Below are positions 4,364 to 59,450 of a DNA stretch of 64,000 nt, piece by piece (position 1 is the first letter of the stretch; each line of letters begins with the position of its first letter). This stretch comes from Natrinema saccharevitans (GTDB taxonomy: Archaea; Halobacteriota; Halobacteria; Halobacteriales; Natrialbaceae). The translations under genes were made by a program, and so were the position numbers. The stretch lies in the NCBI RefSeq assembly GCF_001953745.1, contig NZ_LWLN01000001.1, positions 1,612,001 through 1,676,000 on the forward strand, read 5' to 3'. The notes under the pieces are model-generated. The model searched no databases, had not been told where the DNA came from, and saw nothing but the letters and a program-made list of their open reading frames with translations.

Positions 4364-4629
4364 GTGTGGTCTACATCGTCGTGGTCTACGACATGGAAGC
4401 CGACCGGACCCACAGGATGCTGAAGTTCCTTCGGAGATATCTCACACACGTCCAAAACTCCGTGCTCGAGGGGGACGTGACTGAGGGCGACCTCGAAAAG
4501 ATCCGATCCGGCGTCGACGAAATGCTCAAACCCGGAGAATCGACGATCATCTACCGCGTTTCCTCTGAGAAGATGGTTGAGAGAACCGTCTTCGGTGACG
4601 ATCCTGCCGCCGACGATCAGTTCCTCTAA
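4360..4629 (+). CDS. cas2: Cas2
   Basis: This is an 89-aa ferredoxin-fold protein that forms the structural core of the Cas1-Cas2 integrase. The first strand reads VVYIVVVYDME, with the family aspartate in YDM, followed by RMLKFLRRYLTHVQNSVLEG, a standard haloarchaeal Cas2 pattern. Several in-frame GTG codons occur (4354, 4357, 4360, 4366). I chose 4360 because GTGA gives the same 4-nt overlap used between cas3 and cas4; 4366 would make the leader peptide shorter and cannot be excluded. It is the last gene of the operon, and the CRISPR leader follows directly. Confidence 0.92.
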   Translation: MSVVYIVVVYDMEADRTHRMLKFLRRYLTHVQNSVLEGDVTEGDLEKIRSGVDEMLKPGESTIIYRVSSEKMVERTVFGDDPAADDQFL

Positions 4630-4741
4630 CCGTCCCCGGTTGTTCCATCGACCCCGGGGGGTTCAGAGGTTATCGAGGGTCGACGGAAACGATGAAGTGT
4701 GAACGGCCAATAGAGCTGTTTACGTGGTCTAACTGGCCATG
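4630..4741 (+). promoter_or_regulatory. CRISPR leader
   Basis: About 112 bp separate the cas2 stop from the first repeat. By position this is the leader, which should hold the array promoter and the integration signal for new spacers. It has no open gene. TTTACG near 4720 is a weak TATA-like candidate. The leader is short and not strikingly AT-rich. Leader polarity (cas2 side = new end) agrees with the decayed repeats at the far end. Confidence 0.6.
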
Positions 4742-7715
4742 GTTTCAGAAGGACCCTTGTGGGGTCGAAGCACGACCTCCGCGGAGTCGTGCCGATCGGC
4801 GACGCGGTTTCAGAAGGACCCTTGTGGGGTCGAAGCCCAACTCTCGAGCGTGGTCCAATCCCACCGGAGATAGTTTCAGAAGGACCCTTGTGGGGTCGAA
4901 GCATGCAACCGGGTTCGGACGGGGTTATCAAAGGTATGTTTCAGAAGGACCCTTGTGGGGTCGAAGCGCCGTTCGTCCTGATCCGGTGGTAGCGTCCGCC
5001 TCGTTTCAGAAGGACCCTTGTGGGGTCGAAGCGCGTCATTATCCTCATCAACGCGGTCCCACAGACAGTTTCAGAAGGACCCTTGTGGGGTCGAAGCGCG
5101 GCTCGAGAGTACGACCCGTCGGCTCACCCGGGTTTCAGAAGGACCCTTGTGGGGTCGAAGCTCGAGGCCCCTGCCGTCCTTCGTGAACGCGTCCGCACCG
5201 GTTTCAGAAGGACCCTTGTGGGGTCGAAGCCCCGTCGACGCATGCTCCGCGGCTCCGCAGTGGCCCTGTTTCAGAAGGACCCTTGTGGGGTCGAAGCCGC
5301 ATCGGTCGAGACCGCGGCCTCGATCAGCGGCCCCGTTTCAGAAGGACCCTTGTGGGGTCGAAGCTAACTCTCTGTCGTGACCGATAAGTCCGAGTTGTTC
5401 GTTTCAGAAGGACCCTTGTGGGGTCGAAGCGGCCCGGTAGAGTCTCCCGAGGATGTTCCGGGCCTGTGTTTCAGAAGGACCCTTGTGGGGTCGAAGCTCC
5501 ACAAAGCGCTCACGCGCCCTCTCACGCAGGACGGGTTTCAGAAGGACCCTTGTGGGGTCGAAGCTATCTCCGGAGTCGATGCAAGCGAGGTCTCCGCAGA
5601 CGGTTTCAGAAGGACCCTTGTGGGGTCGAAGCGAATATGTCACCGTCTCGCCGTCGGGGCCGTCGATGTTTCAGAAGGACCCTTGTGGGGTCGAAGCTCG
5701 AGAAGGATTTTATCCCCGTTCGATGCCTCGTGTTTCAGAAGGACCCTTGTGGGGTCGAAGCGAGCGCGAGCGCCTCGAGGGCTGGGAGCGCCAGATCAGT
5801 TTCAGAAGGACCCTTGTGGGGTCGAAGCAACTATACAGCAAGCAACGATACCTATGCAAGTGGTTTCAGAAGGACCCTTGTGGGGTCGAAGCTGCCGCGT
5901 CGGGCAGGTCTATCGATTTCCCTGCTGTGGTTTCAGAAGGACCCTTGTGGGGTCGAAGCGTGCCGTTTCCATGTGTCCCCTCGATGTGAACGTTGTTTCA
6001 GAAGGACCCTTGTGGGGTCGAAGCCTCCACCTTGAGGAAGGAGAGAACCCGTCAAACCTGGTTTCAGAAGGACCCTTGTGGGGTCGAAGCGACTGATCGA
6101 ACGATCTCCACGAACGTTCACATCGAGTTTCAGAAGGACCCTTGTGGGGTCGAAGCGGGGAAGCACCAGCGAGATATCGAACTGCAAAGCCGTGTTTCAG
6201 AAGGACCCTTGTGGGGTCGAAGCTGTGGACAACTGATTATACACAGGTTCAGCGGGAGTTTCAGAAGGACCCTTGTGGGGTCGAAGCGTCGGTGAACGGG
6301 ACGTCGCCGTAGACGCCGCTGCCCCAGGTGTTTCAGAAGGACCCTTGTGGGGTCGAAGCGAGCGCTGCGCGATCACGTCATCGCTCAGCGGATGCTCGTT
6401 TCAGAAGGACCCTTGTGGGGTCGAAGCCAGGAGTGCGTGTTCGGCTTGAGCTTCGCGAACTCGTGTTTCAGAAGGACCCTTGTGGGGTCGAAGCCGGTAC
6501 TCGTGATCCGGGCAGGTGCACGTCTCGGCCGTTTCAGAAGGACCCTTGTGGGGTCGAAGCGCGAACTCGTACGTCGAGACGCTCGTCCCGTCGACGGGTT
6601 TCAGAAGGACCCTTGTGGGGTCGAAGCCTCGAAGGGCGGTTTGCCGTCCTCGGGTTGCGCGAGTTTCAGAAGGACCCTTGTGGGGTCGAAGCGACCGGCC
6701 GCTGCATGTTGGGGCCAGCGAGATCGAGTTTCAGAAGGACCCTTGTGGGGTCGAAGCTACGTGTCATACTCCGGGGAGCCAGAGTAAGACGGTTTCAGAA
6801 GGACCCTTGTGGGGTCGAAGCGATGGAGGTGGGGCCGGTGAGCCGTTCCGCACCAAGTTTCAGAAGGACCCTTGTGGGGTCGAAGCATGAACGCCGACGA
6901 CCGCGACCTCGAGGAGGCCAAGGTTTCAGAAGGACCCTTGTGGGGTCGAAGCGAGACCGTCGCGTCGAAACCGGTCACGATCGCTGAGTTTCAGAAGGAC
7001 CCTTGTGGGGTCGAAGCCCAGCGTCGTTTCCGACTCCCCCGACAGACAGTCCGGTTTCAGAAGGACCCTTGTGGGGTCGAAGCCGATCGGGCGGCATGAT
7101 GGTGGCGACGACGCCGACGAGTTTCAGAAGGACCCTTGTGGGGTCGAAGCGGGTCCCGTACCTCGATCTCGTCGATCTCGAGGGTGTTTCAGAAGGACCC
7201 TTGTGGGGTCGAAGCGTCGATAACGCTCTTACTCGGCGCGACGGCCAGCAAGTTTCAGAAGGACCCTTGTGGGGTCGAAGCCCGCCGTCGTCGTCGCCGG
7301 CGTCGCTCGACGAGTCGCGTTTCAGAAGGACCCTTGTGGGGTCGAAGCGCATACGCCATCGCCAGCGAGTAGCCCGTCGGATCGCGTTTCAGAAGGACCC
7401 TTGTGGGGTCGAAGCTACGGTATATAGAGGCTGTCTCTAAAAGTCGATAGCGTTTCAGAAGGACCCTTGTGGGGTCGAAGCAGGCATCGTCGCCACCTCG
7501 CTCGACAAGCAACAGCCCGTTTCAGAAGGACCCTTGTGGGGTCGAAGCCGGACGGCATCAAGGTCCTGTTTCGGGGTGACGCCGTTTCAGAAGGACCCTT
7601 GTGGGGTCGAAGCGTACTCGCGATCCGGGGCGACCGTGTCGTCCGTGAATGTTTCAGAAGGACCCTTGTGGGGTCGAAGCTTTTATCAGAAAGGTGGGGG
7701 TTGGTCAGCGGCAGC

Positions 7716-7847
7716 GTTTCAGAAGGACCCTTGTGGGGTCGAAGCGATGGTCGCCGGGTAGTCCATGTCAGCGGTCAGCTCGTTTCAGAAGGACCCTTGT
7801 GGGGTCGAAGCGATGGTCGCCGGGTAGTCCATGTCAGCGGTCAGCTC
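7716..7847 (+). repeat. Tandem duplication of one repeat-spacer unit
   Basis: Two consecutive 66-nt repeat-spacer units (7716-7781 and 7782-7847) carry the same spacer, starting GATGGTCGCCGGG and ending GGTCAGCTC. This is most simply explained by unequal recombination or replication slippage between repeats, not by independent acquisition. Confidence 0.9.
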
Positions 7848-8963
7848 GTTTCAGAAGGACCCTTGTGGGGTCGAAGCTATCGCTGTCCGTCGTACCCGTC
7901 GAAGCGGTCGACCAGTTTCAGAAGGACCCTTGTGGGGTCGAAGCCGTTTGAGGATCTACGCTGGGGTGGTTCGGAATGAGCGTTTCAGAAGGACCCTTGT
8001 GGGGTCGAAGCGGCCAGACGATGGTCATCGTCCTCGGTGCGCTCGGGGTTTCAGAAGGACCCTTGTGGGGTCGAAGCCTTGGTCAGACCACTCCACCGCT
8101 TTATCAGACCGGCGTTTCAGAAGGACCCTTGTGGGGTCGAAGCGGCGCGTCGGGCGTCATGTGGCTCCTGGCCACCGCGGTTTCAGAAGGACCCTTGTGG
8201 GGTCGAAGCGACGTTCTCCCCGTCTGTGCCGACTTCGTTAGCGACGTTTCAGAAGGACCCTTGTGGGGTCGAAGCGTATACGCGCCACGCGGCTTAGCAC
8301 CGTTGTACGTGTTTCAGAAGGACCCTTGTGGGGTCGAAGCACGTTGAGGACCTGGCCGACGGCGAACAGCGCGCCGAGTTTCAGAAGGACCCTTGTGGGG
8401 TCGAAGCTTCTACAAATCGTTTAACTTGAGTCCACAGTGTGTTGGTTTCAGAAGGACCCTTGTGGGGTCGAAGCGATCTCGACATCCAAGGCCTCGAGGC
8501 GCACCAGCGTTTCAGAAGGACCCTTGTGGGGTCGAAGCGACGACGATAAGCGCGGCGATGGGACAGTGACAGGTTTCAGAAGGACCCTTGTGGGGTCGAA
8601 GCCTGTCTGGTTGTACCGGCTGGACTCTGACGACACCGTTTCAGAAGGACCCTTGTGGGGTCGAAGCGCGGTATGCTCGCGACGCCTACCCGAGGTCGCG
8701 GGTGTTTCAGAAGGACCCTTGTGGGGTCGAAGCTCGACTTAGTCGCGAAGCCTCTGAGAATATATCTTGTTTCAGAAGGACCCTTGTGGGGTCGAAGCAA
8801 GATCCCCGAGGACAAGGTCATCAACCTCTACAGTTTCAGAAGGACCCTTGTGGGGTCGAAGCCGAGCGTGCACGTCTCGGCCCTCCGAGTCGGTGATGGT
8901 TTCAGAAGGACCCTTGTGGGGTCGAAGCGAGGTGTGCGAAATGACAGCGCGTAACGGGTCCGA

Positions 8964-9093
8964 GTTTCAGAAGGACCCTTGTGGGGTCGAAGCGGCTCAC
9001 GTCCTGGTGGTCCACGTCGAGGACACCGGTTTCAGAAGGACCCTTGTGGGGTCGAAGCGGCTCACGTCCTGGTGGTCCACGTCGAGGACACCG
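8964..9093 (+). repeat. Tandem duplication of one repeat-spacer unit
   Basis: Two consecutive 65-nt units (8964-9028 and 9029-9093) carry the same spacer, starting GGCTCACGTCCTGG and ending GAGGACACC before the next repeat. It is a second, independent example of a local unit duplication. Confidence 0.9.
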
Positions 9094-10149
9094 GTTTCAG
9101 AAGGACCCTTGTGGGGTCGAAGCTTCTCGCCGGTCTCCTCATCGACGTAGTTGTATGCGAGTTTCAGAAGGACCCTTGTGGGGTCGAAGCCCGATCACGT
9201 TCCACCAGCCACCGGGTGACCCATACGTTTCAGAAGGACCCTTGTGGGGTCGAAGCGCTGGTCGTCCTCCGCGTCGGCCAGCGTCTCGAGGTCTCGTTTC
9301 AGAAGGACCCTTGTGGGGTCGAAGCTATCCCCCAGTGCAACCGCTGAAAGAGTGGGCCGAGTTTCAGAAGGACCCTTGTGGGGTCGAAGCTCCACCGAGA
9401 CGGGTGTGACAACCCCTACGTGGGTTTCAGAAGGACCCTTGTGGGGTCGAAGCACAATTGAGAACTCAACCGATAGTATCGAAGTCAATGGTTTCAGAAG
9501 GACCCTTGTGGGGTCGAAGCACGAACTCGTCTCGACCATCGAGACAGAACTTGGTTTCAGAAGGACCCTTGTGGGGTCGAAGCTGTCCGGGGATGCAGAT
9601 CGCGTCGTCGTCGCCGTCGTTTCAGAAGGACCCTTGTGGGGTCGAAGCCGGTGTCGGAGTCGATGACTGCGACCCGGTCAGAATCGTTTCAGAAGGACCC
9701 TTGTGGGGTCGAAGCCTCTTTATCCAAGCCGAGAGTACACTTACTTCCACAGTTTCAGAAGGACCCTTGTGGGGTCGAAGCGACCGTGTGACGCTCGGTT
9801 AGCGATCCACCTGAGCAGTTTCAGAAGGACCCTTGTGGGGTCGAAGCCCGACGCTCTCCGCCGTCAGTGGCGATCTCCGGACTGTTTCAGAAGGACCCTT
9901 GTGGGGTCGAAGCTGTACTGAAACCCGCCGGTCCTAAATCTACCAATCTCGTTTCAGAAGGACCCTTGTGGGGTCGAAGCTCGACGAACAGCGAGTGGTA
10001 GGCCACCGAGCCGATGGTTTCAGAAGGACCCTTGTGGGGTCGAAGCGACGACGATCGTTCCGTCGGTGACAGCGCCCGGGTGGTTTCAGAAGGACCCTTG
10101 TGGGGTCGAAGCCGGCTCTTTGAGCCGTTTTCCGAGTGACGGGTCGCGC

Positions 10150-13025
10150 GTTTCAGAAGGACCCTTGTGGGGTCGAAGACCCGACGTATCGGATGGGGAA
10201 CGGCCGTCTGAGTGTGGTTTCAGAAGGACCCTTGTGGGGTCGAAGAATGTTTCAGCCGTGTCACATTGTGATATGGCTCTCCCGTTTCAGAAGGACCCTT
10301 GTGGGGTCGAAGAGTGGACGCCGTGTTTGACCATCCGCCGGTAGACAGCAGTTTCAGAAGGACCCTTGTGGGGTCGAAGATCTGGGAAGTCCGCTCAGTA
10401 GACTCAGGGGCTGAACGGTTTCAGAAGGACCCTTGTGGGGTCGAAGACCGCGCGGGCGCCTCGCGCTCGAGACTGCGGTTCAGTTTCAGAAGGACCCTTG
10501 TGGGGTCGAAGAGCTATCTTGGTCGGCACGATCCGAACCCAAATGGACCGGTTTCAGAAGGACCCTTGTGGGGTCGAAGACCGTGAGAAAATCCACTGGT
10601 TAACGGGTGAGATTGGTTTCAGAAGGACCCTTGTGGGGTCGAAGACGCAACTCGAGACCGGCGTGGTAGCACGTCGGCATCGTTTCAGAAGGACCCTTGT
10701 GGGGTCGAAGATTGCCACGCCATTACGACGGTCGTTTCAATCCGTTGTTTCAGAAGGACCCTTGTGGGGTCGAAGAACGGACTGGAAGGGGTTGGATGAA
10801 CGGGCAAAGGAAAGTTTCAGAAGGACCCTTGTGGGGTCGAAGAAAGCAACTCAGTGCGCTCGAGGGCGCGTTTGGGATAGGTTTCAGAAGGACCCTTGTG
10901 GGGTCGAAGAAGCACCAATGCACGGCGTGCGGGAAGGAAATCAGCAAGTTTCAGAAGGACCCTTGTGGGGTCGAAGATACACGGGCGTTGAATTGGTCTG
11001 TCGGAGTGGGTTGTGTTTCAGAAGGACCCTTGTGGGGTCGAAGACGATCACCCGCAGGGATCCATCCTCGCTCAGGAGACCGTTTCAGAAGGACCCTTGT
11101 GGGGTCGAAGAACGAAGGAACTCCAGGAGATGCTGTCTACGAAGGAAGTTTCAGAAGGACCCTTGTGGGGTCGAAGAGCGATCGCGACGAGGCTCGCGAG
11201 GTCGCGGGACACGTTTCAGAAGGACCCTTGTGGGGTCGAAGATGCGAGTGAGTGGCTCGTCGTCGAGGACCTGTCGGGGTTTCAGAAGGACCCTTGTGGG
11301 GTCGAAGAGATCGATCAGTATCGCCCGTCTCGGTATCGCTCATGGTTTCAGAAGGACCCTTGTGGGGTCGAAGAGAAGCGCCAAACGGCGGCGTCTGGAA
11401 AGCCCGCCGCGTTTCAGAAGGACCCTTGTGGGGTCGAAGATACACGAGCGTTGGGCGCTACCAGAGCGTCGTCCTCCGTTTCAGAAGGACCCTTGTGGGG
11501 TCGAAGAGACTCGTCGATCGTCGTCACCGACTCCTGTGCGAGTTTCAGAAGGACCCTTGTGGGGTCGAAGAGTCCGAATCACTTTGGCACATCGTAGCGA
11601 AGACTGGTTTCAGAAGGACCCTTGTGGGGTCGAAGATACTGCTCGCAGTAGCTGTGTTACTGTTCGCGTGGATGTTTCAGAAGGACCCTTGTGGGGTCGA
11701 AGACTCAAATTCCTCCGGGTCAACCCCACCGTTCAGAAGGTTTCAGAAGGACCCTTGTGGGGTCGAAGACCGGTTCGACGGCGACGAGTACCCGGGGTTG
11801 AAGGAGAGTTTCAGAAGGACCCTTGTGGGGTCGAAGAGAAGCCGACGAGCCCCAGTCGCTGACCTACGACGTGTTTCAGAAGGACCCTTGTGGGGTCGAA
11901 GACTCCCGTTGAGAGTACGGACGGCACGGACCCGGTGGTTTCAGAAGGACCCTTGTGGGGTCGAAGAGTCGAGCGGACCGGCGTTGACACGGACGGTTTC
12001 AACGGTTCCAGAAGGACCCTTGTGGGGTCGAAGACGCTATGTCCATCGTGTCATGGACAGGTCCATACGGGGTTTCAGAAGGACCCTTGTGGGGTCGAAG
12101 ACCCTCTCATCCAGCGGCGGATGGTATGACGATGAACCGTTTCAGAAGGACCCTTGTGGGGTCGAAGACCCTCTCATCCAGCGGCGGATGGTATGACGAT
12201 GAACCGTTTCAGAAGGACCCTTGTGGGGTCGAAGAGAGGTGTCTATCTAATTACCCGGCCACTTATATTCGTTTCAGAAGGACCCTTGTGGGGTCGAAGA
12301 ATGCAGCCGGACACGATCGCCGTCGTATTCCTCAGGTTTCAGAAGGACCCTTGTGGGGTCGAAGAGCTTCCCCGTGCGCGACGGGAAAGTACATCGTCGC
12401 TGTTTCAGAAGGACCCTTGTGGGGTCGAAGAACGGTTTGCTGTGGTTGACCAGCATTCATATCCGTCGTTTCAGAAGGACCCTTGTGGGGTCGAAGACAG
12501 ACACCCCAGCCCGAACATCTGGTCCCGGACTCGAGTTTCAGAAGGACCCTTGTGGGGTCGAAGAGGGACTTGCTCGAGGATATTGACGCGACAAGTTCGA
12601 GTTTCAGAAGGACCCTTGTGGGGTCGAAGACGAGATCAACCTCGAGGTTGGGCGGATCGGTGATTGTTTCAGAAGGACCCTTGTGGGGTCGAAAACCGAC
12701 CGAGCCCGAGGTCAACGTCGCCGTCGATCTCGGTTTCAGAAGGACCCTTGTGGGGTCGAAGAGGGCCCTCGGTGTCGATCTCGATCTCGATGCCGCGTTT
12801 CAGAAGGACCCTTGTGGGGTCGAAGAGCTGTCAGCGATGATTTGCCGACGCCGCCCGCTTCGTTTCAGAAGGACCCTTGTGGGGTCGAAGATGGTACTGC
12901 GTGTCGACCGTACTCTCGCCCTTGTCGAGTTTCAGAAGGACCCTTGTGGGGTCGAAGACGTAACTGCCTCTTCAACGGTGAGTGGGTCGTCGTTCGTTTC
13001 AGAAGGACCCTTGTGGGGTCGAAGA
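10150..13025 (+). repeat. Block of 44 CRISPR repeats ending in A
   Basis: From the repeat starting at 10150 to the one ending at 13025, every repeat ends ...GTCGAAGA rather than ...GTCGAAGC. The block is uninterrupted; the repeat at 12666 ends GAAAA. The next older repeat (13065-13094) ends in G, and the three older ones end in C. Because each new repeat is copied from the leader-proximal one, a contiguous block implies inherited changes of the template repeat rather than random mutation. Confidence 0.9.
12072..12205 (+). repeat. Tandem duplication of one repeat-spacer unit
   Basis: Two consecutive 67-nt units (12072-12138 and 12139-12205) carry the same spacer, starting CCCTCTCATCCAG and ending CGATGAACC. 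This is the third duplicated unit, and it lies within the A-ending repeat block. Confidence 0.9.
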
Positions 13026-13329
13026 TTCGAGACGGTGTAGTACCGTTCCTCCGTTTCGGTGAGTGTTTCAGAAGGACCCTTGTGGGGTCGAAGGCGTCGC
13101 GGGTCGGCTGATTCGTGGTGGCGCAGTTCATGTTTCAGAAGGACCCTTGTGGGGTCGAAGCGGGCACTGAGCCCGATCAGGATCAGGAGGACGCCGGTTT
13201 CAGAAGGACCCTTGTGGGGTCGAAGCCTGCGTTTGGAGTGTTGCGACTAACTCCGGTTGCTTGTGTTTCAGAAGGACCCTTGTGGGGTCGAAGCCGCGAT
13301 CACGTCGTGAAGTTGGCCCACCGGCATCC

Positions 13330-13424
13330 GTTATAGACGGACCTTGTGGGGTTGAAGTTTCCACTTGAACAGTTCGGAATTCGTCTCGGTAAACAGTTAC
13401 AGACGGACCCTTGTGGGTCGAAGC
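13330..13424 (+). repeat. Two degenerate distal CRISPR repeats
   Basis: The last two repeats are decayed: 13330-13357 (GTTATAGACGGACC..., one base deleted, GTTGAAG ending) and 13396-13424 (GTTACAGACGGACCC..., one G missing, GTCGAAGC ending). Both read AGACGGACC where all intact copies read AGAAGGACC. They mark the old end of the array. Confidence 0.85.
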
Positions 13425-13849
13425 CTCTAAAGGAAGGAAAATAGGAACAGATTTCCGGTCAGTTCTACTCGTACCAGCCCCGCGACACCGTTATCCTGAT
13501 AGTGCCGACCAATTGACGATCTCCACGGCATCCGACTAACCTGGCCGGCGAAAGACGTTGGAGTCTCTGATCTCTTCAGAACCAAATACGGGCATTTCAG
13601 TCGGTTGAAAAGGTTGTTTAGCCGTGAAGGGGGAACGATATACGATACCAAAATCCGGTTTCGACTAACGCTCTTGCGTAGCACATTGTTGATGGAGAGC
13701 CGTCTTGCGCTTCTGCGGGGAATTGAGCGAGGATAGTATCTGGTCGATAGGCGATCAAACGGCCGGTTTCTGTTCCAACCCTTCTTTGGAGAGTTGTATC
13801 AACAATCTCCGACGGAAGAGCGTACGAGGAAACTCCACATCATAGAGCC
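13425..13849. other. Array flank without a convincing gene
   Basis: About 425 bp of lower-GC DNA follow the last repeat. A minus-strand frame of 85 codons (13427-13684) and a plus-strand frame ending with a TAG near 13736 are open, but neither resembles a family I know. It is probably decayed DNA between the array and the integrase remnant. Confidence 0.4.
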
Positions 13850-14056
13850 GTGACATCACACTACGGCCGTCATCGGTTTACGACCTACTGGCGTGTTGAG
13901 CAGGATCTCAACCGAGAGTTAATTAAGTACATGCGGGGCGATACGTCGGCAGGTGGTGTGAACGATCCCGCCGGAGGCATCGACCACTACATCCACAGTT
14001 ACTACGAGGACATCGAACCGGTATATCGGGAACGTATCTTCAAATTAGGAGTGTGA
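13850..14056 (+). pseudogene. C-terminal remnant of a tyrosine integrase
   Basis: The frame encodes SHYGRHRFTTYWRVE, which matches the H-x-x-R box of tyrosine recombinases, then RELIKYMRGD and the HYIHSYYEDI segment that supplies the nucleophilic tyrosine, ending RERIFKLGV at a TGA. This is the last 65-70 residues of a family whose members usually have 300 or more. The same frame is open for only a few codons upstream, so the catalytic N-terminal part is gone. The GTG at 13850 is simply the first possible start and is unlikely to be used. It indicates that an integrated element once ended here. Confidence 0.7.
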
Positions 14057-14250
14057 CGAGGTCGCAACCTCCGAATCGGAACTGGTAATAGAGGAGACCC
14101 GCCTCTTCATTCGGATATTCGTGGTCTTGTAGATTTAGGGACATCGTCGGTGTCTACCAGCACATCGTAGATCGATCTTTTACCGCGATTCACGGAGAAC
14201 GTCGATACGGAAACCACTACGAAGGGCGGACAGCCTCGCATTTCGAGAAC

Positions 14251-14259
14251 GCATATACG
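14251..14259 (+). promoter_or_regulatory. TATA-like box of the nop5-flpA operon
   Basis: GCATATACG lies 23-31 nt before the nop5 ATG, the spacing expected for a haloarchaeal TATA box with a leaderless transcript. The 225 bp between the integrase remnant and nop5 hold no other gene that I can support. Confidence 0.4.
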
Positions 14260-14281
14260 GGACCGGTCTCTTAGGAAGGAC

Positions 14282-15181
14282 ATGAACGATAGGAGTGTCA
14301 CGAGTGCGGGGTGGTTCGCGGACATCGATCCAGCGGATGTAGAAGCGGCTACAGAGGCTATTCGGGAGAAGACTGCTGAGGAACCTCGAGATTGGCCTGC
14401 CGAAGCCGTAGACGCGGGTTTCGCGGACGACGAAGCCGACTACTACACCAAACTCCACGAGTCCACGGTCGAATCCACCCGCGAAGCCGTCAGAGAGCGA
14501 GAAACGGCAGATGATCAACAGCTAAAACATAGTATTCGAGCCATGGACGACTGCGAGCGGACGGCCAACGAACTCGCCGAGCGGCTGGCCGAGTGGGCCG
14601 GGACCGTCGACCCCGACGCCGGGACCGGCGTCGAGTACGCGCGGGAGTTGGCCAGCGGCGAGGCCGGCGACGACCTCGAGGAACCGGCCGTACGCTCGCT
14701 CGCCGAACGCGTGGCAGGGCTCGCCGACGAGGCCGACGACCTCCGCGAGTTCGTCCAGCGGCGGACGCCCGCGGTCGCGCCGAACCTCTCGGCGCTGGCC
14801 GACCCCGTGCTGGCGGCGCGGCTGATCTCGCTGGCCGGCGGCCTCGAGGAACTCGCGAAAAAGCCCAGCGGGACGGTTCAGGTGTTGGGCGCGGAGGACG
14901 CCCTCTTTGCCCACCTGCGTGGTCACGCGCCCTCGCCCAAACACGGGATCATCTACACCCACGACGCGGTTCGGGGGACCAACCCCGGCGAGCGCGGCTC
15001 CGCGGCGCGTGCGGTGGCCGGGAAACTCGCCATCGCCGCCCGCGTCGATCACTACTCCGGCGAACTGAAACCGGAACTCGAGGCGGAACTCGCAGAGCGG
15101 ATCGAGACGATTCAAGCCCGGAACGCGGACAGTGACGTCGGGGACGACGCGGCGACCGACGGAGGTGCCGACGATGAGTGA
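14282..15181 (+). CDS. nop5: NOP5 (Nop56/58), box C/D RNP core protein
   Basis: This 299-aa protein binds the L7Ae-C/D RNA complex and recruits fibrillarin for guided 2'-O-methylation of rRNA and tRNA. A coiled-coil-like acidic middle precedes the Nop domain, recognised by GAEDALFAHLRGHAPSPKHG near residues 200-220 and RGSAARAVAGKLAIAARVD shortly after. The acidic tail (DDAATDGGADDE) is a usual haloarchaeal feature. The gene overlaps flpA by 8 nt. The first 80 or so codons use noticeably more A/T-ending codons (GTA, GCT, ACA, ATT) than the rest, so the 5' part may have a different recent history. The start could be one of several, but ATG 14282 fits the TATA box. Confidence 0.9.
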   Translation: MNDRSVTSAGWFADIDPADVEAATEAIREKTAEEPRDWPAEAVDAGFADDEADYYTKLHESTVESTREAVRERETADDQQLKHSIRAMDDCERTANELAERLAEWAGTVDPDAGTGVEYARELASGEAGDDLEEPAVRSLAERVAGLADEADDLREFVQRRTPAVAPNLSALADPVLAARLISLAGGLEELAKKPSGTVQVLGAEDALFAHLRGHAPSPKHGIIYTHDAVRGTNPGERGSAARAVAGKLAIAARVDHYSGELKPELEAELAERIETIQARNADSDVGDDAATDGGADDE

Positions 15182-15863
15182 GGACCTCCCGACGGGGGTC
15201 CAGCGCCGCACCTTCGACGGGGCCGAGCGCCTCGCGACCCGCGGGGAACCGGTCTACGGCGAGCCCACCGACGTTCAGCAGACGGAGTCTGCTGCAGCCC
15301 ATCAGAACTCGGAGAGTTCTGAGGACGGCGAGTGGCGCGCGTGGAACCCCAACCGCTCGAAGCTCGGCGCGATGCTCGAGCTGGGCATGGACACCGGCCT
15401 CGCGGGCGGCGAGACGGTCCTCTATCTGGGGGCCGCCAGCGGGACGACGGTGAGCCACGTGGCCGACTTCGCCGGCCCGACCTACGCCGTCGAGTTCGCC
15501 GCGCGGCCCGCCCGGGACCTGCTCGAGGCTGCAGAGTCGCGCGAGCGGCTCTTCCTGCTGCTGAAAGACGCGCGAAAGCCCGAGACCTACGCCCACGTCG
15601 TGGAGTCCGACGTCGACGTCATCGTCCAGGACGTGGCGACGAGGGGGCAAGCGCGGGTGGCCCTCGAGAACCGGCAGTTCCTGGCCGAGGACGGGCGATT
15701 ACTGTTGGCCGTGAAGGCACGGAGCGAGGACGTGACTCGAGAGCCCGAGGCGGTGTTCGAGGACGTTCGAACGGAGTTGGAGGAGGGGTACGAGATCGTG
15801 GAGGCGGAACGACTCGAGCGCTATCATACGGATCACCTCGGGGTCGTTGCGCGGCCGCTGTGA
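15174..15863 (+). CDS. flpA: Fibrillarin-like rRNA/tRNA 2'-O-methyltransferase
   Basis: This is the 229-aa catalytic subunit of box C/D RNPs; it uses S-adenosylmethionine to methylate ribose 2'-OH groups chosen by the guide RNA. The SAM site is VLYLGAASGTTVSHVADF, followed by YAVEFAARPARDLL and DVIVQDVATRGQ. The ATG at 15174 overlaps the nop5 stop by 8 nt; an upstream GTG in frame would lie inside nop5. An unusual insertion near residues 34-50 (VQQTESAAAHQNSESSED) sits between EPVYGEPTD and GEWRAWNPNRSK. The DNA behind it holds two perfect hairpins, described separately. The rest of the protein is intact. Confidence 0.93.
   Translation: MSEDLPTGVQRRTFDGAERLATRGEPVYGEPTDVQQTESAAAHQNSESSEDGEWRAWNPNRSKLGAMLELGMDTGLAGGETVLYLGAASGTTVSHVADFAGPTYAVEFAARPARDLLEAAESRERLFLLLKDARKPETYAHVVESDVDVIVQDVATRGQARVALENRQFLAEDGRLLLAVKARSEDVTREPEAVFEDVRTELEEGYEIVEAERLERYHTDHLGVVARPL
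15276..15321 (+). repeat. Twin 8-3-8 palindromes inside flpA
   Basis: CAGCAGAC-GGA-GTCTGCTG (15276-15294) and CAGAACTC-GGA-GAGTTCTG (15303-15321) are two perfect 8-bp inverted repeats. Each has the same 3-nt GGA loop, and 8 nt separate them. They encode most of the low-complexity insertion in fibrillarin. They look like an in-frame palindromic insertion element comparable in principle to coding palindromic repeats of other prokaryotes. Confidence 0.8.
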
Positions 15864-16361
15864 GGGTGCCCCACTGCGATTTGAGTCTGGTATCGCCACG
15901 CTGGTCGGCCGTGTGACAGTAGTTATTAAATCTATCGAGCTGTAGTCGCCATTGAAACGATTCACGTATCGATATCGACGCCGTTTCCGATCCGATGTGC
16001 GACGGTTTTCACCGACGACGGAACGCGAGTCACGTGACTGCCGCGCGCTTCGGTCGGCCTCGAGTGGGTCCCCCTCGAGACCGAGGCTCGTACCTCGAAC
16101 GGCAGATGATATAACGAACTACAGTCTTTCTTTCCCCGCTCGAGGGACGAACGTATCCGGGACACTCATGTCCGTTCGTGTGGCGTGGTAACGCAGCCGT
16201 TCGTGGGAGCGGTTCCAACCAGTCACGGAGTTACTAAGTCCCACCCGGGCCACCCCGGCCCTGTTGTCGTCGCTCTCTCCCGACGAGTCGGATCCGTAGA
16301 GCCACGGCCCGCTGACGGCGTGCTAACTACTATAAGGTCGGTCGTGGTACGCGACCGTGGT
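15864..16361. other. Intergenic region before the acyl-CoA synthetase gene
   Basis: About 500 bp without a supported gene; the frames open here lack family resemblance and are crossed by stops. At the right end ACTATAAG (16329-16336) lies 26-33 nt before the ATG at 16362 and is a good TATA-box candidate for a leaderless transcript. Confidence 0.5.
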
Positions 16362-17954
16362 ATGTCAGAACATCCTACTATCGGCGACACGCTCGAGGGG
16401 ACGGTCGACCGCCACCCGGACCAGGACGCGATCGTCTATCCGCGCAAGGACCAGCGCTGGACCTTCGCCGAGTTCGACGAGCGGGTGAATCGGCTGGCCA
16501 ACGCCTTGCTCGAGGCTGGCATCGAGCAGGGTGATCGGGTCGCGACGGTACTGTACAACGGCTCCGAGATGGCCCTGACCGTTTACGCCTGCGCGAAGAT
16601 CGGCGCGGTCTTCACCCCGCTGAACTTCCGGCTGCCGGCGGGGGAGATCGAGTACATCGTCACCGACGCCGAGGCGGAACTGGTGCTGTTCGAGGCCGAC
16701 ACCCGGGAGGCCGTCGAGGGCGCAAAGCCCGACCTCGAGACCGTCTCGGAGTACGTGTTCATCGACGACGACCGCGAAGCGGCTCCCGACTACGCCCGCG
16801 GGTTCTACGACCTGCTCGAGTCGGGTTCGGCCGAGCGGCCCGACGTTCGCGTCGCCGAGGACGACGTGTACGCGTTCATCTACACCTCCGGCACCACGGG
16901 CCGGCCGAAGGGCGTCGTCCACGAACACCGCGACATGGTCGAGCACAACCTCCTGTGTATCGCGGAGGGAAAGATGACTCGCGACGACGTCGGGCTGTCG
17001 GTGATGCCGCTGTATCACTGCGCCGAACTCCACTGCAACCTCTTCCCGCGGGTCCACCGCGGCGCGACCAGCGTCATCCACCACGAGTTCGATCCGGAGG
17101 CGGCCCTCGAGGCGGTCGCGGAACACGGCGTCACGCTCCTCTTTGCGGCCCCGACGGCCTGGAACGCGCTGTCGATAACCGCCGCCGAAGCGGACGTCGA
17201 CGTCTCCTCGCTCCGGCTCGGCCTCTACGGCGCGGCCCCGATGCCCGAGCAGGTCCTCGAGAACTGCCGAGAACACCTCTGTGAGGACTACCTCCAGGCC
17301 TACGGGATGACCGAGATCGGCCCCGCCGGCGTCTTCCAGCCCCCGGAGGACCAGCTCTCGAAACAGGGCTCGGCCGGCCTCCCGGCGCTCAACCACCGGC
17401 TGCGCATCGTCGAGCCCGACGCGGAGCCGGACGCCGAAGTCGAGCCGAGCGAGATCGGCGAGATCCTGATCGCCAGTCCCTGTACGATGCGCGAGTACTG
17501 GAACCGGCCGGAGGCGACCGCGGAGTCGCTGCGCGAAGCCGACGGGACGACCTGGTACTACACCGGCGATCTGGGCTATCGCGACGACGACGGCTACCTC
17601 TACGTCGTCGACCGCAAGGACGACATGATCGTCTCCGGCGGCGAGAACGTCTACCCCGCCGAGGTCGAGGACGCGCTGTTCGCCCACGACGCCGTCGCGG
17701 AGGCGGCCGTCGTCGGCGAACCCGACGACGAGTGGGGTGAGCGAGTCGCTGCCTACGTCGTCGCCGACGGCGTCGAGGCGTCCGACCTCGACGCGTTCGT
17801 TCGCGAGAGCGACCAGCTGGCCGACTTCAAGCGCCCCCGGACCTACTACTTCGTCGACGAACTCCCCAAGAACCCCAGCGGGAAGGTCCAGAAGTTCAAA
17901 CTCCGCGAGGACGAGACCGCCGACGAGCCCGAACCCGAGACCGTCACGTCCTGA
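16362..17954 (+). CDS. Acyl-CoA synthetase (AMP-forming), fadD-like
   Basis: This 530-aa adenylating enzyme should activate a carboxylic acid, probably a fatty or aromatic acid, to its acyl-CoA by way of an acyl-AMP. The phosphate loop YTSGTTGRPKG starts near residue 174, the YGMTE motif lies near 313-317, the YTGDLG motif follows, and the C-terminal catalytic lysine is K508 in NPSGKVQKF. Length is normal for the class. The frame extends 59 codons upstream, but ATG 16362 follows a TATA-like box at leaderless spacing and begins the conserved N-terminus. The substrate cannot be told from sequence alone. Confidence 0.88.
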   Translation: MSEHPTIGDTLEGTVDRHPDQDAIVYPRKDQRWTFAEFDERVNRLANALLEAGIEQGDRVATVLYNGSEMALTVYACAKIGAVFTPLNFRLPAGEIEYIVTDAEAELVLFEADTREAVEGAKPDLETVSEYVFIDDDREAAPDYARGFYDLLESGSAERPDVRVAEDDVYAFIYTSGTTGRPKGVVHEHRDMVEHNLLCIAEGKMTRDDVGLSVMPLYHCAELHCNLFPRVHRGATSVIHHEFDPEAALEAVAEHGVTLLFAAPTAWNALSITAAEADVDVSSLRLGLYGAAPMPEQVLENCREHLCEDYLQAYGMTEIGPAGVFQPPEDQLSKQGSAGLPALNHRLRIVEPDAEPDAEVEPSEIGEILIASPCTMREYWNRPEATAESLREADGTTWYYTGDLGYRDDDGYLYVVDRKDDMIVSGGENVYPAEVEDALFAHDAVAEAAVVGEPDDEWGERVAAYVVADGVEASDLDAFVRESDQLADFKRPRTYYFVDELPKNPSGKVQKFKLREDETADEPEPETVTS

Positions 17955-18040
17955 TCGCACGAGCGCGCGGCTGACCCACGTTCCGGCCGAACGCTCCGAC
18001 TCCAAACCGTATTTACTGTCGGCGTCGAAAAGGCGATACG

Positions 18041-19123
18041 ATGGAACGCGGGTCCCGAGAGTCGTTTACGCGCATGGGTACGGTGGGGATCGAGGAGGAG
18101 TGTTTCGTCGTCGACGAGGACGGTCGCCCCACCAGCGGGACCGACGACCTCGTCTACGAACACGACCCGCCCGAGATCCTCGAGGGCCGACTCGATCACG
18201 AACTGTTCAAGTTCGTCATCGAGACCCAGACGCCGCTGATCGAGGACCCCGACGACGCCCGCGACGCGCTGCTTGCGATCCGACAGGCGTTAGTCGACCA
18301 CGCCGAGGCCCACGGCTACCGGATCGCCGCCGCCGGCCTCCACCCGCTCGCGAAGTGGCAGGAACTCGAACACGCCGAGAAGCCACGCTATCGGGCACAG
18401 CTCGACCGGATCCAGTACCCACAGCACCGGAACACGACCGCGGGGGTCCACGTCCACGTCGGCGTCGACGACGCCGACAAGGCGGTCTGGATCGCCAACG
18501 AACTGCGGTGGTACGTGCCGATCATGCTGGCGCTGTCCGCGAACTCGCCGTACTGGAACGGGTTCGACACCGGGCTCCAGTCGGCCCGCGCGAAGATCTT
18601 CGAGGCGCTGCCCAACACCGGCATGCCGACCCACTTCGAGGACTTCGAGGCCTTCGACCGGTTCGAGCGCCGGATGCTCGAGACCGACTCGATCAACGAT
18701 CGGGGCGAACTCTGGTACGACGTGCGGCCCCACACCGCCCACGGAACCGTCGAGTTGCGCACGCCCGATAGCCAGGCCGATCCCGGCGTCGTGCTGGCGT
18801 TCGTCGAGTACGCCCACGCGCTCGTCGAGGCTTTGGCCGAGGCCTACGAGGACGGCGCGACCGGCCACGACCACCGACGGGAACTGCTCGACGAGAACAA
18901 GTGGCGCGCGATCCGGTACGGACAGGACGCATCCTTCATCGACCGCGACCTCGAGGGGACCGTCGACCTCGGCGAAGTCGTCGACCGCGAGTGCGAGCGA
19001 CTCGGCATCGACGGGATCAAGCGGGTCTACGAGCGCGAGAGCGGCGCGGACCGCCAGCGCCGACTGCTCGAGGACGAGGGACCCGACGCGCTGTGTGACT
19101 CGCTGTTTCTGCAGACCGAGTAA
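18041..19123 (+). CDS. gshA: Glutamate-cysteine ligase (GCS2 type)
   Basis: This 360-aa protein belongs to the carboxylate-amine ligase family. In haloarchaea it makes gamma-glutamylcysteine, the major thiol that replaces glutathione. The signature [10 protein letters not shown] begins near residue 13, and the substrate and metal pocket is seen in [15 protein letters not shown] and [17 protein letters not shown]. The length matches the haloarchaeal form. The start gives a short untranslated region after the 3' end of the acyl-CoA synthetase gene, 86 nt away. It appears intact. Confidence 0.9.
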
Positions 19124-19177
19124 CGTCCTCACAAAGGTTTAACTCCGCGGGAAGCCTCGTCCTGTACGAGAAAACAC

Positions 19178-19801
19178 ATGAGTTTCGACGACACTGACGA
19201 GGGTCCGGTCGACGGCGATGGAGACGAACCGCTCGAGGACCGCGACGTCGTCGAGCCGGGGACCGAGCGCCGCAGTCCGACGGTCGAGGAACTCGACCAG
19301 CGGTTGATCGACCTGCTCTCGTGGATCCTCGATACGGAGACCCGCGCGAAGATCTACGTGTTTCTGCTGGCCAACCAGGGGAGTACGTCTGAGGAGGTCG
19401 CGAAAGGGACCGGCCTCTATCCAAGCACCGTCCGCGAGGCGCTGGCGGAACTCCACGAGGAAGAGCGAGTCACGCGGGAGAAACGGGAGAACGAGGGGGC
19501 CGGCAACAACCCCTACGAGTACACCGCGATCCAGCCCAGCGAACTCGTCGGCGGCGTCGTCGATCAGGTTCAGGCGGAACTGAACACGATCTTCGCGCTC
19601 GATCGCATCGTCGACCGCGAGACGCCGCCCGATCTCGAGGCGGAAGCCGAACCGGTGACGATCACGATCGACGATACGGCACCGATTCTCGAGTCCGACG
19701 AGTCGGACGAGACCGATACCGACGTCATCGAGTTCGAAGACGAGACGGACACGGACACCGTCGGGACGGACGCCGACGGCCCGGCGGACGGCGACGAGTA
19801 G
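19178..19801 (+). CDS. Winged-helix transcription regulator (TrmB/MarR-like)
   Basis: This 207-aa protein has an acidic N-terminal tail, then a winged helix from about residue 40 to 120: ETRAKIYVFLLANQG, STSEEVAKGTGLYPSTVREAL (recognition helix) and a wing near REKRENEGAGNNPYEYTAI. The C-terminal 60 residues are an acidic low-complexity tail rich in D, E and T. No ligand domain is visible, so the effector is unknown. GTTTAAC at 19137-19143, 35-41 nt before the ATG, is a possible TATA box. Its targets could include the gshA gene just upstream, but that is only a guess from position. Confidence 0.8.
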   Translation: MSFDDTDEGPVDGDGDEPLEDRDVVEPGTERRSPTVEELDQRLIDLLSWILDTETRAKIYVFLLANQGSTSEEVAKGTGLYPSTVREALAELHEEERVTREKRENEGAGNNPYEYTAIQPSELVGGVVDQVQAELNTIFALDRIVDRETPPDLEAEAEPVTITIDDTAPILESDESDETDTDVIEFEDETDTDTVGTDADGPADGDE

Positions 19802-19813
19802 CCGGAGCGCGAC

Positions 19814-20947
19814 CTACGCCTCGCGGACGAGCGGGACCGGCCGCTCGAGTTCGAGGTCACGATCGACCGCCGCGGCGGTCACGGTCGGCCAGCGGTCGGT
19901 CGCCGTCAGGAGTTCGATCCCGTCGTCGGTGACGAGCGCGGTGTCCTCGCTTTTCGCGCCCCGTACCGTCGGGTTCCACGCGTAGGCCATCGGCGCTTCG
20001 ACGGGCGCGTCGTGACCCGGCGTGGCGATCCACTCCCGACCGGCGAAGCCGGCGGCCCCGCCCTGGTGGTGGTGTCGCCACTCGCCCTCGTAGCCGACCG
20101 CGTCGTAGGCGTCCTGTATGGCACCGAACACGTCTCCTGCAGTGTCGCCGGTGCCCCCGTCGCTGCCGTCCACATCGCCACCGACGGCCGCCACCCGCGT
20201 CGCCGCCAGCGCCGTCGTTTCGACGCGAGCCGCCGCTCTGTGTCGCTCCTCGAGCCAGGCCGGCGGGTCGAACGCCACGGTTCGGGTACAGCTCGCGTGG
20301 AGCCCGCCCCGTTCGGCGGTCACGGAGACGAGGACGTAGTCGCCGAGTTCGGCCTCGGTCGGAGTGTAGTGGCGGTAGCGCTGGACGCGCTCGGCACCGC
20401 CGACGAGGACCACCGGCGTCTCGATGTTCCGGGCCGACAGCGCGACTCGCAGGGCCGAGGCGACCTCGTGTTCCGTATCGCCGCGCTGTAGCTCCCGACA
20501 GACCGATTCGACGGCGGTCGCCGTCTCCTCGCCGAGGTCGCGGTAGCGCTCCCGGTCGCGCTCGGTCAGGGGCTGGCGCAGCGCGGTCGGGTCGACGCGC
20601 TCGAGCCCGGGGACCTCGATATCGGCGGCGGCCCGTTCGTCCGGTCCGACGCGGTCGGCGATCGCCGCGGCCAGCGACGACGCGTGCCAGGGAAACTCGA
20701 CGACCGACACCGCGTCGGCCTCGAGGTCGGGGAGTTCCTCGGCGGCGATGCGATCGGCCTCGATGTTGTTCGCCACGAGCGTGATCTCGGCCCCGTCGTA
20801 GCCTACCGCGGCGACGCCGGTGTCTCCCTCGCGGTCGACGACGTTGTTCCCGCCGGTGAGCCACGCGAACGCGTTCGGTCGAGCGAACCAGACCGAGTCG
20901 AGTCCGTTCGACTCGAGGTGGGCCTCGAGTCGGTCGCGTTTGTCCAT
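19814..20947 (-). CDS. M24-fold (creatinase/aminopeptidase-like) protein lacking metal-binding Asp
   Basis: This 377-aa protein has the pita-bread fold of Xaa-Pro peptidases: an N-terminal creatinase domain (FARPNAFAWLTGGNNVVDREG) and a C-terminal domain ending SEDTALVTDDGIELLT. In active M24 enzymes two Asp residues bind metal in a D-x-G...D-x-TRT strand pair. Here the corresponding stretch reads VLVSVTAERGGLHASCTRTV, with neither Asp. A histidine-rich HHHQGGAAG is present near the usual His ligand. It may be a non-peptidase member. I chose the ATG at MDKRDRLEAHL because the 23 upstream codons are not conserved-looking. It converges with the regulator gene. Confidence 0.78.
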   Translation of the reverse strand: MDKRDRLEAHLESNGLDSVWFARPNAFAWLTGGNNVVDREGDTGVAAVGYDGAEITLVANNIEADRIAAEELPDLEADAVSVVEFPWHASSLAAAIADRVGPDERAAADIEVPGLERVDPTALRQPLTERDRERYRDLGEETATAVESVCRELQRGDTEHEVASALRVALSARNIETPVVLVGGAERVQRYRHYTPTEAELGDYVLVSVTAERGGLHASCTRTVAFDPPAWLEERHRAAARVETTALAATRVAAVGGDVDGSDGGTGDTAGDVFGAIQDAYDAVGYEGEWRHHHQGGAAGFAGREWIATPGHDAPVEAPMAYAWNPTVRGAKSEDTALVTDDGIELLTATDRWPTVTAAAVDRDLELERPVPLVREA

Positions 20948-56977: not shown

Positions 56978-57103
56978 TCACCCCAGCCGCCGGCCGTCCG
57001 CAGCGACCGCCAACGTGCAGTCGTCACAGCACCACCAGCCCACCAGCGGGTCACGCTCGAGCGGGACGCCACAGCTCGGACACCGCTGGCGGTCCCCGGT
57101 CAT
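56978..57103 (-). CDS. Zinc-ribbon microprotein
   Basis: This 41-aa protein (MTGDRQRCPSCGVPLERD, then WWCCDDCTLAV) has two CxxC pairs forming a zinc ribbon. Its ATG overlaps the upstream winged-helix gene's stop by 4 nt (ATGA), so it is translated from the same message. Short zinc-finger proteins of this type are common in haloarchaea, and some act with regulators. Confidence 0.65.
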   Translation of the reverse strand: MTGDRQRCPSCGVPLERDPLVGWWCCDDCTLAVAADGRRLG

Positions 57104-57477
57104 CGGTCGGCCCCTCGAGCGACCACCGTGAGGTCGCAGGCCGCCGCGAGGCGTTCGGCCCGCTGGATGATCAGCGCACGACCGGCGTCCGTCAGCCGGT
57201 AGGCGCGCTCGCACGTGTCGAGCAGACCGCGTCCCACCAGCGCCCGCAGGTTCCGCTCGAGCCTGGCGCGACTGACGCTCGGATAGCGCCGCTCGAGTTC
57301 GCCGGCGATCGCGTCGATCGGGTTCGGCGTCCGCGTGCGCTCGAGGCGGACGAGGGCCTCGAGACAGTCGCGCTGGAGGGCGGTACACTGGATCCAGCGC
57401 CGGCTCGCGTCGTGGTCGTCGGGCAATGCGGTCGCGCTGTCGGGGCTTTCAAGGCCCCGCGAATCGTCGTCGTGCAT
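57100..57477 (-). CDS. Winged-helix regulator
   Basis: This 125-aa protein has an acidic N-terminus, then LQRDCLEALVRLERTRTPNPID, the recognition element YPSVSRARLERNLRALVGR and a wing ending CERAYRLTDAGRAL. It resembles PhiH1 repressor-like or MarR-like haloarchaeal regulators. MHDDDSRG is taken as the start; 40 further codons are open upstream. It is coupled to the zinc-ribbon gene by an ATGA overlap. Confidence 0.7.
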   Translation of the reverse strand: MHDDDSRGLESPDSATALPDDHDASRRWIQCTALQRDCLEALVRLERTRTPNPIDAIAGELERRYPSVSRARLERNLRALVGRGLLDTCERAYRLTDAGRALIIQRAERLAAACDLTVVARGADR

Positions 57478-57679: not shown

Positions 57680-57817
57680 ATGGCCGATGAGAAGACGACG
57701 GTAACGGTGTCGACGGAGACCTGGAAGCGGCTTACGATGCGAAAAGATCCGGGCGATAGTTTCGACGACGTGATCACCGACCTGCTCGACGAAGTCGAAG
57801 ACACGGACGGCGACTGA
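57680..57817 (+). CDS. VapB-like antitoxin/ribbon-helix protein
   Basis: This 45-aa protein (KTTVTVSTETWKRLTMRKDP, then SFDDVITDLLDEVED) has the strand-helix-helix form of VapB or DUF7557-type antitoxins: a leading beta strand binds DNA and the C-terminal helix would bind a toxin. No toxin gene follows, so it may be an orphan antitoxin. The ATG at 57680 is preceded by CTAGCCC. Confidence 0.6.
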   Translation: MADEKTTVTVSTETWKRLTMRKDPGDSFDDVITDLLDEVEDTDGD

Positions 57818-57882: not shown

Positions 57883-58107
57883 ATGATTCTCGAGGCATTG
57901 AACTCGTCGGGTATAATTCTCTCTTCAGCAGTGATTGGGAAGAATATCGACAGGAGCCGAGAAGAGGTAACACGTCGCCTTTCGGATCTTGTAACCGATG
58001 GACTCGTCTCTCGCGTTGAACGCGGATACTACGAAATCACGGACCTCGGCGAGCAGTATCTCGAGGGAGATTTCGATGCGGACGACCTCGAGCCGGATAC
58101 CGAGTGA
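57883..58107 (+). CDS. Small winged-helix protein
   Basis: This 74-aa protein reads MILEALNSSGIILSSAVIGK, then RSREEVTRRLSDLVTDGLVS and a wing ending RGYYEITDLGEQYLEGDFD. It is of the PhiH1 repressor-like type. The frame stays open for some codons upstream, so a longer N-terminus is possible. It is probably debris or a regulator of an integrated element next to tRNA-Trp. Confidence 0.6.
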   Translation: MILEALNSSGIILSSAVIGKNIDRSREEVTRRLSDLVTDGLVSRVERGYYEITDLGEQYLEGDFDADDLEPDTE

Positions 58108-58112
58108 TCGGT

Positions 58113-58406
58113 TTACTGGTCTCGACGGACGGAGTGAACGTTCGGCATCGTGATACCGACCGAGTCCTGGTCGATCTGACGAAGTTTGTGCACCTTGGTT
58201 TCGACAGGGATACTGGGCTCGACGAGGACGATCCCGTAGAACGGCAGCGACCGATCCGGCTCGAGGACAGCAGTGGTTCGAGCGTCGTGCTAGGTCGCGG
58301 TCCGATCACCGACGTACTCCAAGGCGTCGACGGTCAGGACGATCGTGCCTTCGAGGGCGTCACCGCTGGCCGTCGGACTCTCGAGTTCCGACGCTCGAGA
58401 ACTCAT
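58113..58406 (-). pseudogene. 97-codon gene interrupted by an in-frame amber codon
   Basis: From ATG at 58406 the frame reads MSSRASELESPTASGDALEG, then VLTVDALEYVGDRTAT and a TAG at 58292-58290 (codon 39). In the same frame it continues HDARTTAVLEPDRSLPFYG, VETKVHKLRQIDQDSVGI and ends VHSVRRDQ with TAA at 58115-58113. Codon use stays typical after the TAG. The ATG overlaps the stop of the zinc-finger microprotein by 4 nt (ATGA). The simplest reading is a nonsense mutation, for example CAG to TAG, in a mobile-element gene. I do not recognise the protein. Confidence 0.6.
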
Positions 58407-58522
58407 AGCGGATCCTCCCGCACGTTCCGAACCGCGCGCGTACACTCGGGGCAGAGTCGGCGAAGCGCGTCGAGGCGATCATCGCATCGTTCGCACTCGT
58501 CGGCCTCGACGAGTCGGTTCAT
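58403..58522 (-). CDS. Zinc-finger microprotein
   Basis: This 39-aa protein reads MNRLVEADECERCDDRLDAL, then RRLCPECTRAVRNV, with CERC and CPEC pairs that make a zinc ribbon. It is coupled by ATGA to the interrupted gene downstream. Similar paired microproteins are frequent in haloarchaeal viruses and integrated elements. Confidence 0.55.
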   Translation of the reverse strand: MNRLVEADECERCDDRLDALRRLCPECTRAVRNVREDPL

Positions 58523-58631: not shown

Positions 58632-58862
58632 ATGGCTACTGAAGAAGAGCCCACTCAGCCCAACCAGTCTACGACTACCGAGTATAGTAATACGGTAATC
58701 ACTATTATCGGCTCTTTCGCGGTTCTTGGTTTCTCTCTCGCCGGGGAAATGGACGATCCGGGAGTTCTGATAGAGAGCATTTGGATGGGAATGGGGTTCG
58801 CGATAGTCTACCTGCTCTTGGTCGTGGCTAGCAATCTCAAGCGGTTGAAATCCGCTCCCTGA
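58632..58862 (+). CDS. Small membrane protein
   Basis: This 76-aa protein has a polar Thr/Gln-rich N-terminus and two helices (NTVITIIGSFAVLGFSLAG and GMGFAIVYLLLVVASNLKRL). AT-rich codons and an AT-rich upstream region (AAGTTTAATAGG) set it apart from neighbouring genes, consistent with foreign origin. The function is unknown. Confidence 0.6.
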   Translation: MATEEEPTQPNQSTTTEYSNTVITIIGSFAVLGFSLAGEMDDPGVLIESIWMGMGFAIVYLLLVVASNLKRLKSAP

Positions 58863-59009
58863 TCGGTCAATACCGCTCGAGGGCTGTCCGCCGTCAGTAC
58901 AGACCTCTCGGTCCTCGAGCGCGCGGCGAACGTCGGCGTCGGTCGCTCGATGGGCCGGATGGGAGTCCGGCTGTCGACATCGTACAACTCGCTTGCTCGG
59001 ACGAACCCG

Positions 59010-59240
59010 CTACGCATCGGCCTCACCTCCGTGGCGGCCTTCGAATGTCTCCGGATCGGGAACCGCCACGTCGATACCAACAGCGGAGCCGCGGCTCAGT
59101 CGGGCGTACGTATCGCAGTCACCACAGCGGTGGGCCCGGTCCTCGTCGTCGCCGAAGACGCGGCGGAATCGATCCGTGACGTGGGCTCCGCAGTGCTGGC
59201 ACGTCGAGTGATCAGTCTCGTTCAAATTCTCCTCGTCCAA
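59010..59240 (-). CDS. DUF7563-type zinc-finger protein
   Basis: This 76-aa protein has STCQHCGAHVTDRFRRVFGD and RAHRCGDCDTYARLSRG, two CxxC pairs flanking a conserved R-x5-FGD segment, as in small haloarchaeal DUF7563 proteins. The acidic N- and C-termini are normal. It lies 35 bp from tRNA-Trp. Confidence 0.65.
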   Translation of the reverse strand: MDEENLNETDHSTCQHCGAHVTDRFRRVFGDDEDRAHRCGDCDTYARLSRGSAVGIDVAVPDPETFEGRHGGEADA

Positions 59241-59275: not shown

Positions 59276-59450
59276 TGGGGTCGGAGGGATTTGAACCCCC
59301 GATCTACTGATATCTCCGGTGCGCCTCGGAACTCCAGAGGGTCATCACACGGACACTGATCAGGTGCCCGATCAGTATATCAGTCTGGAGTGTCGTCCCG
59401 GGCGCGTTGCCTCTGGAGTCAGCCGCCATGCCTGGCTTGGCCACGACCCC
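59276..59450 (-). tRNA. tRNA-Trp (CCA) with C/D-box intron
   Basis: On the minus strand the 5' end GGGGTCG (59450-59444) pairs with CGACCCC at the 3' end (59283-59277), and 59276 is the discriminator A. Anticodon loop CTCCAGA holds CCA at 59416-59414; stem GCTGA pairs with TCAGT (59310-59306). T arm GGGGG-TTCAAAT-CCCTC is present. The intron (about 59412-59312, near 101 nt) contains a TGATGA-type C box and CTGA-type D boxes, as in other haloarchaeal tRNA-Trp introns that guide 2'-O-methylation of the same tRNA. Confidence 0.93.

Follow-up and report, generated by a model that had tools for sequence, protein, structure and literature searches.

The 97-codon frame considered here, interrupted by one TAG, lies in a 64,000-nucleotide stretch of the Natrinema saccharevitans genome (the window). 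In our opinion, it almost certainly belongs to a decayed SNJ2-type betapleolipovirus provirus beside a tRNA-Trp gene, in which a fragment of gp22 was joined to other virus pieces by deletion and its Trp39 codon was turned into TAG. Judged by its sequence, the frame is best described as a pseudogene fragment within a provirus relic, carrying an ordinary Trp-to-stop mutation. Since the interrupted gene appears to be a broken virus leftover and its stop an ordinary disabling change, nothing unusual need be assumed about how genes are read in this cell.

The frame is on the minus strand. Its ATG (58406-58404) is followed by an in-frame TAG (58292-58290), and 97 codons, the TAG counted, separate the ATG from the next stop, a TAA. 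The sequence ATGA at 58406-58403 overlaps the ATG with the TGA of a 39-aa microprotein (58522-58403). This geometry, including the overlap with a CERC/CPEC microprotein, had been described in an earlier note and proved exact when the sequence was re-read. The same note took the frame for a single interrupted gene; that view has to be abandoned, because the 97 codons are a deletion chimera of pieces from gp22, gp11 and the flank of gp4. BLAST against related loci resolves the region into three abutting pieces: 58536-58193, containing gp23 and codons 1-71 of gp22; 58192-58141, a 52-base piece of the beginning of SNJ2 gp11; and 58140-58057, the 3' flank and end of SNJ2 gp4. In SNJ2 these pieces stand approximately 9 kb and 4.4 kb apart in identical order and orientation, and the chimera is therefore best read as a product of deletions. 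The features of the relic, listed from its tRNA border inward, are as follows.

59276-59450, minus strand: tRNA-Trp(CCA), interrupted by a 101-base intron; the relic is bordered on the left by the 3' end of this gene, the likely attachment site (ARAGORN with introns; Rfam tRNA, 46.8 bits; one genome copy).
59010-59240, minus strand: homologue of SNJ2 gp25, a DUF7563 zinc-finger protein of 76 aa (tblastn, 79% identity; Pfam PF24444, E 1.6e-21).
58856-59017, minus strand: 5' fragment of SNJ2 gp24, cut short and with its frame broken (tblastn matches in two frames, to gp24 residues 1-46 and 17-56).
58632-58862, plus strand: 76-aa ORF with no Pfam match, in place of the gp24 remainder (common to the matching site in a sister species, G062).
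58403-58522, minus strand: homologue of SNJ2 gp23, the 39-aa CERC/CPEC microprotein, with an uninterrupted frame (tblastn, 77% across all 39 residues).
58193-58406, minus strand: the first 71 codons of SNJ2 gp22, interrupted at codon 39 by TAG, about 100 codons being absent (DNA match to the intact copy elsewhere in this genome, 87.5% identical and ending at 58193).
58290-58292, minus strand: the in-frame TAG at codon 39, where homologues have TGG (Trp) (sequence re-read and homologue comparison).
58141-58192, minus strand: piece of SNJ2 gp11 covering residues 3-19, fused in phase (blastn, 83-87% to loci L010 and L012; tblastn with gp11, 76%).
58108-58140, minus strand: 3' flank of gp4, supplying the last codons of the chimera and its TAA (58057-58140 matches SNJ2 at 87% across the gp4 end).
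57883-58107, plus strand: homologue of SNJ2 gp4 (phiH1-like repressor), a 74-aa winged-helix protein without its first ~15 residues (tblastn, gp4 16-88, 54%; wHTH Pfam matches).
57118-57477, minus strand: homologue of SNJ2 gp3 (recombination accessory protein) (tblastn, gp3 1-130, 45%; phrog_4278, E 1.7e-15).

The frame stays open past the TAG because 32 further codons are genuine gp22, about 17 come from gp11 in phase, and the last few are open by chance. Being put together from three virus pieces, it would still be broken if the TAG were a sense codon; intact SNJ2 gp22 has 173 aa. Of 29 genomes of the genus, only the host genome itself showed a match spanning the gp22-gp11 or gp11-gp4 junction, among the matches listed.

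The relic is collinear with SNJ2 (Saline Natrinema sp. J7-1 virus 2, OP012469.1, Betapleolipovirus), the two sharing the order gp25-gp24-gp23-gp22-gp11-gp4-gp3, the orientation of these genes and the ATGA overlap of gp23 with gp22. Unlike SNJ2, the relic lacks gp21-gp12, gp10-gp5, gp2 and gp1, and its gp24, gp22 and gp11 are truncated. When all 25 SNJ2 proteins were compared with the window by tblastn, only those seven were matched; neither gp1 nor any of gp12-gp19, which include the integrase, Rep (gp19) and the structural block, gave a match in the window at E 1e-4. For this reason, the locus is, as far as its sequence tells, an SNJ2-type provirus relic rather than a complete provirus. Open frames remain for gp25, gp23, gp4 and gp3. 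The tRNA expected at the border is present, tRNA-Trp (59450-59276) adjoining gp25 just upstream, whereas SNJ2 itself integrates at tRNA-Met, according to the accessible part of PMC7547991. This intron-bearing tRNA was missed by the default tRNA scan. Two further small frames lie nearby: a VapB-like antitoxin frame of 45 aa (57680-57817, plus strand) within the relic region, and a 41-aa frame with two CxxC motifs (56980-57102, minus strand) that overlaps the end of the gp3 homologue and is possibly another zinc microprotein.

Sister genomes show the matching site in other states. In G062 it is without gp23, gp22, gp11 and gp4, and shares the arrangement in which the 76-aa plus-strand ORF stands where the gp24 remainder would be; in G065 and G075 it holds gp18-bearing elements, a contig end interrupting the site in G075. 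G062 and G065 have the 3' end of tRNA-Trp twice at the matching site. Several genomes of the genus have SNJ2-like or gp18-bearing elements next to tRNA-Trp.

A search of the host genome with the 410-base query returned six places, including the window itself. One is a second copy, 87% identical over the first 330 bases; two others match only bases 331-382, and two are shorter gp23-type matches. The second copy (L002/L010) contains an intact 173-aa gene, 90% identical to SNJ2 gp22. Its surroundings are provirus-like (L010, within G000:C1:411000-430900) and resemble the window in having 87.5% DNA identity over gp23-gp22 and a gp11 homologue, but differ in that gp22 is complete with Trp39, that gp9, gp14, gp15, gp17 and gp18 are matched, and that the adjoining tRNA is tRNA-Ala(CGC).

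The identity of the lost codon is clear from homologues. Codon 39 was compared in the tblastn gp22 matches from loci L001-L086; those that did not reach it were dropped, which left 58 matches with 41 distinct DNAs. The loci included 30 taken from the best matches in 125 family genomes, 22 from named genomes, and SNJ2. The codon is TGG (Trp) in all 40 other distinct DNAs, the intact copy in the same genome included. This is the comparison that the earlier note had called for, and it bears out a sense codon at this position. It also bears out the single nonsense mutation proposed there, though not its supposed origin from CAG: an ancestral Gln codon is ruled out by TGG in every other homologue examined. 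Matches to gp22 were present in 90 of the 125 genomes, and gp22 DNA in genomes of the host genus was identical to the Natrinema mahii and N. thermotolerans loci. In the family search, 17 listed gp22 matches showed an internal stop when inspected by eye; the other copies among them are also decayed, via TGA or TAA, many being weak, distant matches, and only that of the window, among the matches listed, has TAG.

The succession of events may be pictured as follows. An SNJ2-type betapleolipovirus would have inserted next to the tRNA-Trp of a Natrinema genome and then decayed. At least two internal deletions would have brought the 5' part of gp22 up against a remnant of gp11, and that remnant against the 3' flank of gp4, the repressor gene, the joins leaving a short open frame by luck; a G-to-A change would have turned Trp39 of the gp22 part into TAG. 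Homology, gene order, the junctions, Trp in every other homologue examined and the lack of the segment at the sister site are direct observations, whereas we infer which came first, the deletions or the TAG, and that no product acts. Also in favour of this reading, the available portion of PMC13107129 reports that the excised SNJ2 genome no longer replicates when a nonsense mutation is placed in any one of orf19-orf26; from the numbering, its orf22 and orf23 would be gp22 and gp23 of the SNJ2 record.

Programmed read-through of the TAG, or amber suppression, yielding a protein of 97 aa whose N-terminal 38 aa would be separable, was the more attractive proposal of the earlier note. Openness past the TAG and a low dN/dS over codons 40-71 (0.18 against L002) could be cited for it. 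However, the openness is inherited from gp22 and gp11, and the frame is absent at the sister site. A recoded gene should keep its stop in homologues, but TAG at codon 39 occurs in 1 of the 41 distinct DNAs, the window itself, and Trp in all others. Nor is the frame statistically conspicuous. Counting frames in which an ATG opens 38 codons or more, a TAG follows and the frame then stays open for 58 codons or more, we found 24 in the 64-kb window (both strands, including frames antisense to real genes), and 86 with all three stops allowed. The TAG cases in 36001-64000 number 13, against a mean of 14.7 per 28 kb in 50 first-order Markov copies of that part; a TAG-interrupted frame of such size is no commoner than chance gives. 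TAG is an ordinary terminator in the window, ending 9 of the 29 non-overlapping acidic ORFs of at least 150 aa, acidity serving as a filter for likely haloarchaeal genes.

The decoding machinery points the same way. The earlier note had suggested a look for amber-suppressor tRNAs, and none turned up. The genome has 47 tRNA genes by Rfam, for all of which ARAGORN gave an anticodon, none of them CTA, TCA or TTA; tRNA-Trp is absent from this list, probably because of its intron, and with it included none of 48 has a CTA anticodon, a scan in which long-intron tRNAs could be missed. The best PylS score in the genome was 33 bits against a cut-off of 178, which only 1 of 14 control genomes passed. 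With PylS under the cut-off and no CTA tRNA, amber suppression was discarded; a mutated tRNA-Trp acting as suppressor, a candidate because this gene adjoins the relic, was likewise rejected, its anticodon being CCA and its copy the only one found. In view of these data and the commonness of TAG frames, read-through finds no support, and we give it practically no chance of being right. Scarcely more probable is that the TAG is a sequencing or assembly error for TGG, leaving the gene truncated and not interrupted. A single base is at stake, known here from the assembly; against this, the genome is in 3 contigs and 99.99% complete, and other changes found only in the window surround the site. The truncation of gp22 would stand even then.

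It is also very unlikely, if somewhat less so, that the host has retained the surviving small frames (gp23, gp25, gp4 and possibly the 38-aa stub), for instance as a protection from superinfection by SNJ2-like viruses. The gp23 microprotein is complete, retains its four cysteines and has a dN/dS of 0.14 against L002, and the gp4 frame is open. Nevertheless, the sister species G062 is without gp23 to gp4 at the matching site, gp4 is without its first residues, and transcription of the SNJ2 operon starts inside the integrase gene, as reported in the available portion of PMC13107129, a gene with no match here. A more specific proposal, that the relic is still expressed and that gp23, the repressor in its shortened form and the gp22 stub (read through to some degree or not at all) interfere, as a host defence, with the replication of incoming SNJ2-like viruses, strikes us as a shade less probable again.

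Selection on the gp22 part agrees with decay without settling it. Between the window and L002, dN/dS is 0.28 over codons 1-71 (0.49 before the TAG, 0.18 after), against 0.04-0.17 for intact gp22 pairs over the same codons. Where nine other sequences agree, changes confined to the window comprise 5 nonsynonymous, 1 stop and 4 synonymous; together with dN/dS they hint at relaxation, the numbers being small. No greater relaxation is visible in codons 40-71 than in codons 1-38, on 14 and 10 changes. The before/after comparison says little, as it would mostly record evolution before the gene broke, and is in itself no proof of death.

The preferred reading, a decayed provirus with a chimeric gp22 remnant, disposes of a misleading case of apparent stop-codon recoding in haloarchaea; a deletion chimera of virus genes can evidently pass for a single gene that contains an amber codon in frame. 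A further SNJ2-type relic is placed as well, at tRNA-Trp. Like the C(P)XCG zinc-finger microproteins of haloarchaea, the gp23 homologue is very small and has two CxxC motifs; those described in the accessible parts of PMC11241148 and PMC6562870 are Haloferax volcanii genes, whereas the gp23 homologue belongs to a virus replication operon.

The gp22 family itself has no Pfam match, PHROGs gives only phrog_2095 (function unknown), PDB gave a chance-level match, and no relatives were found in viral_contigs. An AlphaFold2 model from 18 sequences has a mean pLDDT of 42. Two motifs, W39-H40-D41 and E69-x-K71, are invariant in 18 of 18 sequences and suggest a nuclease-like active site; presumably they resemble those of PD-(D/E)XK nucleases, a putative likeness. 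Another family member lies at L044 3001-3519.

Elsewhere in the same genome, the provirus-like region around the second copy, L010 from about 3100 to 19900, is a second SNJ2-like provirus with intact gp22, gp17, gp18 and others. Between its gp24 and gp23 lies a stretch whose translation, by eye only, resembles a cytosine methylase. A fragment with gp23 and gp24 pieces lies beside tRNA-Pro(GGG) at L011 8020-9340.
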